A stretch of 40,494 bases of DNA from the NCBI GenBank assembly GCA_905236025.1, contig CAJOOB010000067.1, positions 1 through 40,494 on the forward strand, read 5' to 3'. Below are positions 26,721-30,633 of the stretch, one piece after another; position 1 is the stretch's first letter; each line of letters opens with the position of its first letter. The DNA is from an uncultured Lachnospiraceae bacterium (lineage in GTDB: Bacteria; Bacillota; Clostridia; Lachnospirales; Lachnospiraceae). A program made the translations under genes and the position numbers. The notes below the pieces were generated by a model. That model searched no databases and was not told the DNA's origin. It was given only the letters and a program-made list of their open reading frames with translations.

Positions 26721-26758
26721 AACCATATAAACATGTGGATCGAACAAGGATGTTTAAG

Positions 26759-26776
26759 GTGGCATAAATATGCCGC
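26759..26776 (+). promoter_or_regulatory. leader hairpin before the FliD-like gene
   Basis: GTGGCAT (26759-26765) pairs with ATGCCGC (26770-26776) around an AAAT loop with one G-U pair, ending six bases before the AAGGAG. GGA motifs flank it on both sides, as in leaders bound by CsrA, but that is only a possibility. Confidence 0.4.
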
Positions 26777-26795
26777 AGCAAAAAGGAGTGATATT

Positions 26796-27551
26796 ATGTC
26801 TGCATATTATGGGATTACATCAAGCGGTGTATCAACGCTTTTTTCGTCGCTTAGTACAAGCAGGACTACAATGACGAATTCCTTTGACAGTATGTATGGT
26901 TTAACTTCATCTACACTTGATACGAGTTATCTTGGAACATATGCAAGTATAAGAAACGGAAGTTACGCAACGCTTGTCAAAGCTTATTATGAAAAAAATG
27001 AAGATGCGGATGCAAATGTAACAACGACGTCCACATCAACCGACACCGTAAAAGAATTAAAACTTGTTGAATCATCGGCTGAGGATTTAAAATCAGTAGC
27101 TGATGAATTATATTCATCGGGAAGTACACTGTTTGCAACCGATGATGACGGTGAATATGATACAGATGCAATTTATGAAAAGGTAAGCGAATTTGTTGAT
27201 TCATACAATTCTCTTATTTCGGATTCGAAGAATATAAATTCATCAACAATTGCATCGGCTGTATCAAATCTCCAAAATGCAACCGAAAATTATGAAGTGC
27301 TTTTAAAGAAAGCCGGTATTACGATTAACAGTGACGGCAAGCTTTCAATCGATGAAGATACATTTAAACAGGCCAATATGTCAACAGTAAAGACAATATT
27401 CAGCGGAACAAATTCGCTTGCATACCAGACATCTGCATATGCTGCAACGGTTGATTATTATTCGGCATACGAAGCAACAAAATCGAATACTTATACATCA
27501 AGCGGAGCATATTCATATAACTACGCAAGCACATATACATCATACATTTAA
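26796..27551 (+). CDS. stand-alone FliD C-terminal-like protein
   Basis: A 251-residue protein rich in Ser, Thr and Tyr, with no Cys, no signal peptide and no membrane segment, as in flagellar secreted proteins. Residues about 80-220 contain FVDSYNSLISD and then KKAGITINSDGKLSIDEDTF followed by IFSG, which resemble the C-terminal region of the flagellar cap FliD. The FliD N-terminal and hypervariable regions are missing, and the last 35 residues are Tyr/Ser/Thr repeats. It may be a flagellar or adhesin-like secreted helper rather than the cap. The start at 26796 follows AAAAAGGAG; an in-frame ATG at 26733 is in the leader. It is a single-gene unit with its own promoter and strong terminator. 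Confidence 0.7.
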   Translation: MSAYYGITSSGVSTLFSSLSTSRTTMTNSFDSMYGLTSSTLDTSYLGTYASIRNGSYATLVKAYYEKNEDADANVTTTSTSTDTVKELKLVESSAEDLKSVADELYSSGSTLFATDDDGEYDTDAIYEKVSEFVDSYNSLISDSKNINSSTIASAVSNLQNATENYEVLLKKAGITINSDGKLSIDEDTFKQANMSTVKTIFSGTNSLAYQTSAYAATVDYYSAYEATKSNTYTSSGAYSYNYASTYTSYI

Positions 27552-27573
27552 AGGCGTAAGAAAAGCTTAAAAA

Positions 27574-27613
27574 ACCCTCTTTACCGGAATATGGTAAAGA
27601 GGGTAATTATTTT
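27574..27613 (+). terminator. intrinsic terminator of the FliD-like gene
   Basis: ACCCTCTTTACC (27574-27585) pairs perfectly with GGTAAAGAGGGT (27593-27604) around a seven-base loop, followed by AATTATTTT. It starts 23 bases after the stop. Confidence 0.9.
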
Positions 27614-27710
27614 GTACATTAAAGAAAAACTATAATTTTTTGAAAAAGAACTTTAATTTTGGAAATTATCAACTTAATTTTTAGAAATTGAAAAAATGAA
27701 TTTAAAAAAC

Positions 27711-27739
27711 TTGCCATTAAGGACAATATGTGGTAGAAT
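27711..27739 (+). promoter_or_regulatory. sigma-A promoter for the long leader or noncoding transcript
   Basis: TTGCCA (27711-27716), a 17-base spacer and TAGAAT (27734-27739). No gene starts within 500 bases downstream, so the transcript is either a long leader or noncoding. Confidence 0.6.
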
Positions 27740-28055
27740 ATCAGAGAATAAAAGTCAAAATATTGCGTTTTGGCTTTATAGTTATGACATTTGAAATTTA
27801 TAGTTTTTAGGGAGAACCCACGTATTTTGGCGTTTTTTAAAGGCTGTGACAAGGCAAAAATAATCGTTATGGTAAACCACTCTTTTGGTGGTAGTCCTTA
27901 AAAATAAAGATTATAAAAAGTCAAAAATCAGCATTTTGATTTGTAACAAATTTATAGGTGCAGATTTTTGGATTTTGGAATGATATTTTCGTGGGCATTT
28001 TGTGGAAAGTATTTAAAATTCCAATTGCAGAAAAATATCTGACAATTGTTGTTAA

Positions 28056-28083
28056 TTGACATAATAAAACTGAATTGTATATA
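28056..28083 (+). promoter_or_regulatory. sigma-A promoter of the transporter-hflX unit
   Basis: A perfect -35 TTGACA (28056-28061), then TATATA (28078-28083) at 16 bases or TATACA (28080-28085) at 18. The -10 lies inside a perfect palindrome, which suggests repressor control. Confidence 0.58.
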
Positions 28084-28088
28084 CAATT
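28073..28088. promoter_or_regulatory. palindromic operator overlapping the -10 box
   Basis: AATTGTATATACAATT is a perfect 16-base palindrome covering the -10 region of the 28056 promoter. This is the usual size and position for a dimeric repressor such as a MarR, GntR or TetR family protein; no regulator gene is adjacent. Confidence 0.55.
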
Positions 28089-28156
28089 ATGACATTTCCA
28101 TTTATAAAATATTGGAAATGAATTTTTTTATTCATGAAAAATTTCTTTGAATTACG

Positions 28157-28226
28157 TGGAGGCGAAAATTACAATATTTACAATAAATAAAATTATTGTA
28201 AACTACTTCGCCCCATGATTTTTTTT
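28157..28226 (+). terminator. terminator-like attenuator in the transporter leader
   Basis: TGG-A-GGCGAA (28157-28166, one bulged A) pairs with TTCGCCCCA (28207-28215); inside, TTTACAATA (28177-28185) pairs with TATTGTAAA (28194-28202). Eight T residues follow (28219-28226). A repeat of TTACAATA at 28169-28176 offers an alternative partner for the inner right arm. It ends 13 bases before the GAGGG of the next gene, so read-through must be controlled or partial. Confidence 0.75.
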
Positions 28227-28249
28227 ATGTTAACGTAGAGGGAAACGGT

Positions 28250-29356
28250 ATGGAAAAGGTTTTAAAGTTTGTAAAAGATGAAGCAGTATTAGTGATTTCG
28301 GGCGTTTTGGCGTTTGTGTCCTGCTTTGTTATTCATCCTGATAAATTGTATTTTAATTACATAAATTTTGATGTACTTATTCTTTTATTCTGCCTCATGG
28401 TTGTCGTGGCGGGATTTAGAGAAATCGGCGTTTTTGATTATCTTTGCAGAATTATGTTAAAGAGAGTTTCAAAGTTAAGAGCGGTTTCAATGCTTCTTTG
28501 TTTATTTTCATTTGTGACCGGAATGTTTTTGACTAATGATGTTACCCTTGTTACGGTTGTTCCGTTTACACTTCTCGTTTTTGGATATTATTCCTCAAAG
28601 TCTCTTATATTTTTACTCATAATGGAAACGGTATCCGCAAATCTTGGGAGTATGCTTACTCCGCTTGGCAATCCGCAGAATCTTTACATATATGATGTAT
28701 ATAATTTTGAGATGTCTGAGTTTTTACTTACCATGCTTCCGTATTCAGCTTTGGCACTTTTGCTTATATTTATAAGCTGCATGGTTATGTTTAATAAAAA
28801 AGATGAGATTGTGGTTCCCGAATATACGAAAAAGAAAATCGACAAAAGAAAGCTTTTGATTTTTTCAATGCTTTTTATACTAAGTATTCTTGCGGTGCTT
28901 CATATTCTAAATTATTTTGTGTTACTGGCTATCGTCATTATTTTATGTATTTTTACGGATTACAGGGTGATTTTTAGGGCGGATTATTATTTATTGTTAA
29001 CCTTCGTTTTTTTCTTTATATTTATTGGTAATATTGGAAGAATTGGTGCAATAAGCGAAGGATTAAAGGGTATTGTTACCGGAAATGAAATTTTTGTTTC
29101 GGTTTTTCTTTCGCAGTTTATAAGTAATGTGCCTGCTGCGGTTTTACTTTCTGACTTTACAAAGAACGGAAAAGAGCTTTTAATTGGAATCAATCTTGGC
29201 GGGCTTGGCACCATCATTGCCTCAATGGCAAGCCTTATTACATATAAGTTTTACGTTAAAATTGACGGAGCAAGCGCAAAGAAATATATTTTATGTTTTT
29301 CTTTCGTCAGTGTCATTTATTTGGTGGCTTTAATCGGACTTTCGGTTATAATATAA
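28250..29356 (+). CDS. ArsB/NhaD (SLC13-like, citrate-transporter superfamily) membrane transporter
   Basis: A 368-residue protein with about 10-11 hydrophobic segments. Two re-entrant signature segments of the ion-transporter superfamily are visible: MFLTNDVTLVTVVPF in the first half and SQFISNVPAAVLLSDF in the second, plus MLTPLGNPQNLYIY. These Asn-Asp/Asn-Val-Pro motifs hold the ion and substrate in ArsB, NhaD and DASS-type carriers. The substrate (arsenite, Na+/H+, dicarboxylate or another anion) cannot be decided; no arsenic genes are near. It lies behind a terminator-like leader and a palindrome-covered promoter, so tight regulation is likely. hflX follows after 26 bases. GAGGG precedes the ATG. 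Confidence 0.8.
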   Translation: MEKVLKFVKDEAVLVISGVLAFVSCFVIHPDKLYFNYINFDVLILLFCLMVVVAGFREIGVFDYLCRIMLKRVSKLRAVSMLLCLFSFVTGMFLTNDVTLVTVVPFTLLVFGYYSSKSLIFLLIMETVSANLGSMLTPLGNPQNLYIYDVYNFEMSEFLLTMLPYSALALLLIFISCMVMFNKKDEIVVPEYTKKKIDKRKLLIFSMLFILSILAVLHILNYFVLLAIVIILCIFTDYRVIFRADYYLLLTFVFFFIFIGNIGRIGAISEGLKGIVTGNEIFVSVFLSQFISNVPAAVLLSDFTKNGKELLIGINLGGLGTIIASMASLITYKFYVKIDGASAKKYILCFSFVSVIYLVALIGLSVII

Positions 29357-29382: not shown

Positions 29383-30633
29383 ATGTCGGAACTTTATGAT
29401 ATTAAAGAAGAACAGGAAAGAGTAATCTTGGTTTCTGTGTGCACTGATGATCAGGATGCAGAGGAGTCTTTGGATGAACTTGAGGAACTTGTGGATACTG
29501 CGGGCGCTGTTACGCTTGGCCGTATGATACAAAACCGTGAAAAGGTTCATCCGGGTACTTATATTGGAAAAGGAAAAATTGAAGAACTCTCATTATATAT
29601 AAAAGCAAACAATGCAACCGGTATTGTCTGTGATGATGAGCTTTCCCCCGCACAGCTTAAAAATCTGCAGGAGGAACTTAACATAAAGGTTATGGACAGA
29701 ACCCTTGTGATTCTTGATATTTTTGCAAAGAGAGCAACCACGAAGGAAGGCAAGATACAGGTTGAACTTGCGCAGTTAAAGTACAGAATGTCAAGGCTTA
29801 TAGGTTCAAGAGACTCGCTTTCAAGACTTGGCGGCGGTATTGGTACAAGAGGGCCGGGTGAGAAAAAACTTGAAATTGACAGGCGTTTGATTGGTGACAG
29901 GGTTTCCTTCTTAAAAAAGGAAGTTGAAGAACTGGCCATGCACCGCGAGATTTCAAGAAACAAGAGGAAAACCGGGATGTTACCCGTTGTGGCAATTGTG
30001 GGATATACAAACGCAGGCAAGTCCACTCTGTTAAATAAACTTACGGAAGCGGATATTTTGGCAGAGGATAAGCTTTTTGCGACGCTTGACCCAACCACGA
30101 GAAATTTTAAACTTCCGGGAGACAGAGAAATTCTTCTTACGGACACGGTCGGATTTATAAGGAAACTCCCGCATCATTTGATTGACGCGTTTAGAAGTAC
30201 CTTGGAGGAAGCAAAATACGCAGATATCATTATCCACATGGCCGATAGCCACAATAAATCCCTGGATTCACATATGGTCACGGTTTACGACACTTTAAAC
30301 AAATTAGGAGCGGGCGATAAACCGGTAATTACGTTTTTTAACAAGTCCGATATAAACGAAGAAAAGCCGGATTTGCACGATCCTAAAGCGGATTATGTGA
30401 TTTACGGAAGCGTAAAGACGGGTGAAGGCCTGGATGGATTAATAAATGCGGTTTCGGAGATTGTTAACAAACAGTCGGTGCATATTGATACTGTTCTTTC
30501 GTTTGATAAGGCGGGAATTGTTGCACAGGTAAGAAAGTACGGCGCACTTATAAAAGAAGAATATATAGAAAGCGGAATTCACGTGATTGCGGATGTTCCA
30601 AGCGATATTTACGGTAAATATTTTAAAGAGTAG
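29383..30633 (+). CDS. hflX: ribosome-associated GTPase HflX
   Basis: A 416-residue GTPase. The N-terminal HflX domain (about 1-185) has GTYIGKGKIEEL, DDELSPAQLKNL, DRTLVILDIFAKRA and the Gly-rich GGGIGTRGPGEKKLE; the G domain follows with G1 GYTNAGKST, G3 DTVGF and G4 NKSD. HflX splits stalled or hibernating 70S ribosomes under stress. The length is normal. The start at 29383 follows GAGG and gives the usual N-terminus; an in-frame upstream ATG at 29293 lies inside the transporter gene. It is 26 bases from the transporter and ends before the thyA promoter; no hairpin terminator was seen. Confidence 0.93.
   Translation: MSELYDIKEEQERVILVSVCTDDQDAEESLDELEELVDTAGAVTLGRMIQNREKVHPGTYIGKGKIEELSLYIKANNATGIVCDDELSPAQLKNLQEELNIKVMDRTLVILDIFAKRATTKEGKIQVELAQLKYRMSRLIGSRDSLSRLGGGIGTRGPGEKKLEIDRRLIGDRVSFLKKEVEELAMHREISRNKRKTGMLPVVAIVGYTNAGKSTLLNKLTEADILAEDKLFATLDPTTRNFKLPGDREILLTDTVGFIRKLPHHLIDAFRSTLEEAKYADIIIHMADSHNKSLDSHMVTVYDTLNKLGAGDKPVITFFNKSDINEEKPDLHDPKADYVIYGSVKTGEGLDGLINAVSEIVNKQSVHIDTVLSFDKAGIVAQVRKYGALIKEEYIESGIHVIADVPSDIYGKYFKE

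Follow-up and report, generated by a model that had tools for sequence, protein, structure and literature searches.

A terminator hairpin beside the start codon of a CitMHS transporter gene in a Lachnospiraceae genome, possibly overlapping the transporter's own promoter

The window, a 40,494-nt stretch of DNA from an uncultured Lachnospiraceae bacterium, contains a strong hairpin followed by eight T residues (T2) shortly before the start codon of a transporter gene. By sequence and folding T2 is an ordinary intrinsic terminator, with a stem and U-tract beyond chance, and the explanation preferred here, with confidence somewhat short of even, is that it shares sequence with the transporter's own promoter and ends transcription coming from upstream. 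This is the most economical reading, and premature termination of the transporter mRNA is close behind it. The ion- or metabolite-sensing riboswitch suggested in the original prediction is unsupported, as the searches gave no aptamer, no conserved leader and no significant antiterminator, and T2 illustrates that a strong terminator beside a start codon may wrongly suggest a riboswitch. The elements around the transporter start are the following.

28155 to 28217, forward strand: T2, terminator hairpin of 63 nt, -19.3 kcal/mol in the computed fold
28219 to 28226, forward strand: T8, the U-tract of T2, read from the sequence
28169 to 28185, forward strand: TTACAATA in two copies (28169-28176 and 28178-28185), from sequence and folding
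28177 to 28202, unstranded: palindrome of 26 bp with perfect arms, TTTACAATAA-N6-TTATTGTAAA, read from the sequence
28237 to 28242, forward strand: ribosome-binding site AGAGGG, read from the sequence
28250 to 29356, forward strand: CitMHS (PF03600) transporter of 368 aa, Pfam E 6e-36
29383 to 30633, forward strand: hflX, the next gene, 26 nt 3' of the transporter

The base stem of T2 has 11 bp and one bulge: C28155-G28159 pairs with C28213-G28217 and G28161-A28166 pairs with T28207-C28212, A28160 being bulged. An asymmetric internal loop separates it from an A+T-rich apical stem of 10 bp, in which 28177-28186 pairs with 28193-28202. The last T of T8 lies 24 bases from the ATG, whose A is at 28250, and some 11-13 bases from the AGAGGG ribosome site, while the hairpin itself ends 32 nt before the ATG. 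The two-part stem with eight T residues that had been described from the letters is thus present by sequence reading, folding and shuffling. The duplication of TTACAATA is present as well, and its copies are alternative partners of TATTGTAA (28194-28201), giving two nearly equal inner stems of -19.3 and -18.7 kcal/mol, 0.6 apart. The 28177-28202 palindrome may be the apical stem of the T2 RNA, or else a candidate DNA operator just 3' of a predicted -10 element.

Among 400 dinucleotide shuffles of 28100-28249, one gives a hairpin and U-tract as strong as T2. For the leader 28092-28226 the folding z is -5.5, which none of 200 shuffles equals, and the wider 191-nt fold of 28100-28290 is ordinary (z -1.4, 16 of 200 shuffles). 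T2 was missed by a generic terminator scanner because the scanner allowed only loops of 3-8 nt. Like other intrinsic terminators, T2 has a base stem that contains G+C and a T-run directly after it, and its strength is within the range of gene-end terminators: among 119 of these in the sampled genome, 45% have -19.3 kcal/mol or stronger and 24 are at least 60 nt long, while a T-run of 8 follows only three. It differs from them in lying 32 nt before a start codon rather than after a gene, and in its length of 63 nt.

The frequency of such elements was taken from 456 genes in 625 kb of the same genome, 211 of which have an intergenic gap of at least 80 nt; start codons of these genes and of the transporter homologs were assigned by simple rules. 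A hairpin and U-tract of -19 or better ending at most 40 nt from the start is found at seven of the 456 genes, and wholly intergenic cases at five of the 211, so T2 is uncommon in this genome, but not unique. At -14 or better and the same distance the count is 24 of 456, about one gene in twenty. Transporter homologs carry such an element at 5 of 101 loci, compared with 24 of 456 ordinary genes, and a near-start terminator is therefore not a property of the CitMHS transporter family (one further homolog, with less than 150 nt of upstream sequence, was dropped from this count).

Several of the near-start hairpin-plus-T elements of the genome overlap or precede a predicted promoter, and T2 is one of them. 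Promoters were scored with a model built by expectation-maximisation on 222 upstream regions of the same genome, excluding the transporter locus, for which the upper quartile of the training set is 11.1 and the 95th percentile of random 250-nt sequences is 8.6. The elements of the gap upstream of the transporter are the following.

28147 to 28175, forward strand: top predicted promoter, TTGAAT-N17-TACAAT, score 11.3, with the -35 at 28147 and the -10 at 28170
27711 to 27739, forward strand: second strong predicted promoter, TTGCCA-N17-TAGAAT with TG before the -10, score 11.1
28093 to 28129, forward strand: T1, a weaker terminator-like hairpin (28093-28120, -7.3 kcal/mol) followed by T7 (28123-28129)
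28056 to 28085, forward strand: promoter-like TTGACA with TATATA (spacer 16) or TATACA (spacer 18)

The 28147 promoter has the highest score in the 645-nt gap and predicts a start at ~28182, within the T2 hairpin and 68 nt from the ATG, a distance inside the interquartile range of the genome (35-76 nt). The next site upstream of T2, at most 200 nt before the ATG, has a score of 4.8. A start that bypasses the terminator had been named beforehand as what would speak against premature-termination control; the top-scoring promoter predicts just such a start, but chance is possible, as its score is matched by 21 of 1000 shuffles of 28100-28249 (150 nt) and by 37 of 500 shuffles of the whole gap. 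Three fits on half of the data each placed the 27711 promoter first and the 28147 promoter second, while fitting that began with a non-consensus seed gave neither of them. The T2 hairpin is better supported than the 28147 promoter. The TTGACA site at 28056 scores 4.8, about the median of random sequence under the genome-trained model. It is overlapped by a perfect 16-bp palindrome, AATTGTATATACAATT (28073-28088); TTGTATATACAA (28075-28086) was considered as a regulator site and rejected, its sole other genome copy lying within an apparent coding stretch.

From these elements we infer the following arrangement. T2, with the weaker T1 ahead of it, would end transcription arriving from upstream of the transporter, and the transporter promoter would overlap the left arm of T2, though neither of its hexamers falls in 28155-28166. 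RNA starting at ~28182, inside the hairpin, would give an mRNA that lacks this left arm and would therefore not be terminated. T1 and T2 would in this way shield the transporter promoter from RNA of the strong upstream promoter at 27711, whose product would be a noncoding transcript of ~385-480 nt, or alternatively from read-through past the terminator of the upstream fliD-like gene. The A+T palindrome 28177-28202, just 3' of the -10, is a possible DNA operator. The 625 kb of the genome contain no further site that has fewer than two mismatches to this palindrome, and none occurs in the homolog leaders at up to two mismatches.

The upstream RNA that T2 would stop is hypothetical, because the fliD-like gene already has its own terminator at 27574-27604. 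This terminator has a 13-bp stem and -20.2 kcal/mol and is scored on both strands, and fliD transcription should therefore not reach the transporter. An overlap of promoter and terminator is also not forced by lack of space in a gap of ~700 nt. A strong near-start terminator is present at 25 genes, of which 15 have a best promoter that scores over 8.6, and in these the promoter is nested in the hairpin-plus-T in three (the transporter included), upstream of it in six and downstream in six, the scores of genes other than the transporter being in-sample. With only three of 15 genes nested, nesting is not the rule in near-start terminators. The two other nested cases are at L061:3864 (argF-like) and L150:12036 (GGDEF/EAL-like), both names being taken from the translations. 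At L150:12036 (forward strand, contig C24 of the same genome) a 49-nt inverted repeat encloses a promoter with a score of 14.2.

The fliD-like ORF (26733-27551, 272 aa) matches FliD_C partially and FliD_N not at all, and adjoins genes for xylan and arabinan degradation. A RybB-like Rfam match on the reverse strand (27567-27633, E 0.0099, below the gathering score) was rejected, as it is the fliD terminator. Five small ORFs in the gap were examined for a hidden protein, and none has a match at a Pfam family cut-off.

The transporter belongs to CitMHS by its Pfam match, and no NCBIfam model is reached at its cut-off, the score being far below every one; no relative of solved structure was found by sequence search. 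The earlier designation as an ArsB/NhaD-type transporter, which lacks NCBIfam support, fits at superfamily level only. The transporter is found in 159 of 397 family genomes, with the nearest homolog ~52% identical, and the homolog set used here has 102 loci, 89 from the family genomes and 13 from another search (the partial match L020 was excluded). The transporter and hflX are probably co-transcribed, and the genes that follow hflX are thyA and then dihydrofolate reductase. This hflX encodes the only full HflX found in the genome. None of the 102 homolog loci has fliD, hflX or thyA beside the transporter, within short flanks in which distant neighbours are missed.

Premature termination, the control proposed originally, is a quite possible explanation that we place second. 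The transporter mRNA would start upstream, at ~27746 or 28090, most of it would end at T2 and some at T1, and read-through, either constitutive or regulated, would set the expression of the transporter and hflX. The regulator of read-through might be a protein, a small RNA or the translation of a short leader ORF. T2 is placed as an attenuator would be: its spacing of 32 nt from the ATG resembles the ~38 nt at a T-box gene of this genome, and in both the terminator lies shortly 5' of the ribosome site, as in T-box and riboswitch expression platforms. The tandem arrangement agrees with this, since T1 with its T7 is matched by one of 500 shuffles and T2 is similarly rare, and so does the 27711 promoter (-10 at 27734), which would start a leader of ~480 nt at ~27746 ending at T1/T2. 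A mutually exclusive fold is also present, in which 28121-28136 pairs with the left arm of T2, and prefix folding indicates that, before the right arm has been made, the left arm is held in this competing fold. However, 91 of 500 shuffled versions of the upstream part equal the gain of this antiterminator, 5.0 kcal/mol, so that no antiterminator beyond chance was found.

An attenuator of this sort is described as controlling hflXr in Listeria (PMC6310831), and the present locus is similar in having a possible terminator-controlled leader 5' of an hflX gene. It differs in that hflX is second in the operon, the antiterminator is not above chance and the RLR motif of the hflXr leader peptide is absent from leader ORFs of at least 20 aa and from shorter ones. 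Short leader ORFs such as 28118-28150 have no clear ribosome site. Against premature-termination control stand also the 0 of 102 homolog loci with hflX beside the transporter, the lack of terminator enrichment among the homologs and the lack of a conserved leader, described below. Simple premature termination at T2 is possible. If regulated termination is true, it would link the transporter to hflX, the gene of the ribosome-splitting GTPase HflX. A more specific form, in which tandem terminators and near-equal inner stems make up a lineage-specific leader, a new class of orphan attenuator without aptamer that sets the ion-type transporter and HflX together by regulated read-through, seems improbable to us.

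That T1 and T2 are instead the 3' end of an unannotated small RNA, running from ~27746 to 28129 or 28226, and that leaky read-through is the only source of transporter expression, is likewise unlikely. The strong 27711 promoter and the tandem T1/T2 are what such an RNA would need, but the stretch has only short A+T-rich matches in the 397 genomes, no Rfam match and an ordinary folding z. A structured noncoding RNA at 27745-28060 was tried and rejected: its z is -3.7, yet for 27746-28046 it is -2.7. The folding z of the gap, -2.7, is ordinary, since 23 of the 69 other intergenic leaders compared have a lower value.

A riboswitch, with a leader aptamer that toggles T2 on sensing an ion or metabolite which the transporter handles, is the least probable of the explanations and is very doubtful. 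Riboswitches of the Na+-I and nhaA-I (Li+-I) types can stand, together with a terminator, before nhaD-type transporter genes (PMC9337991, PMC9646797), and one nhaD case is described with three aptamers, each with its own terminator (PMC9646797). Should the 27711 site be a promoter, the leader could be as long as 480 nt. In the transporter genome, unlike in those cases, neither the Na+ nor the nhaA-I model has a match with an E limit of 1. A search of the window gives no Rfam family at its gathering score, and the gap and leader have no relevant match with an E limit of 10, in contrast to T-box and riboswitch leaders, with which the transporter leader shares neither an aptamer nor a conserved structure. 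An Rfam cis-regulatory RNA upstream on the transporter strand occurs at 0 of 100 homolog loci (L128 and L129 left out); the T-boxes at L024 and L071 are on the strand opposite to the transporter. The ordinary folding z of the gap also argues against an aptamer.

The original prediction had proposed a comparison of leaders with Infernal. A covariance model of the leader (R1), searched with stricter filters that lose weak matches, finds one of 397 family genomes, its own, and a DNA search of the leader in the same 397 genomes gives short A+T-rich matches only. Of three foreign matches from a DNA search, two were rejected, as the one at L004 is a gene-end terminator and the one at L006 shares the palindrome only. 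The own genome is the sole member of its genus among the genomes compared and the nearest homolog is ~52% identical, so these comparisons would miss an aptamer that is recent and lineage-specific.

Two other leaders present features of their own. In the leader of a homolog of 49% identity (L007:1141-1197), the right arm of a -29.6 kcal/mol hairpin holds a GGAG ribosome site and is followed by T5 directly before the ATG, which could be translational control. In the same genome as the transporter, the gene at L168:10187 (forward strand, contig C42) has a gap of 868 nt, a 300-nt leader with a z of -7.1, the lowest of 69, and a hairpin with U-tract of -19.8 with a promoter of score 12.5 just 5' of the hairpin, and it is a better attenuator candidate than the transporter leader.
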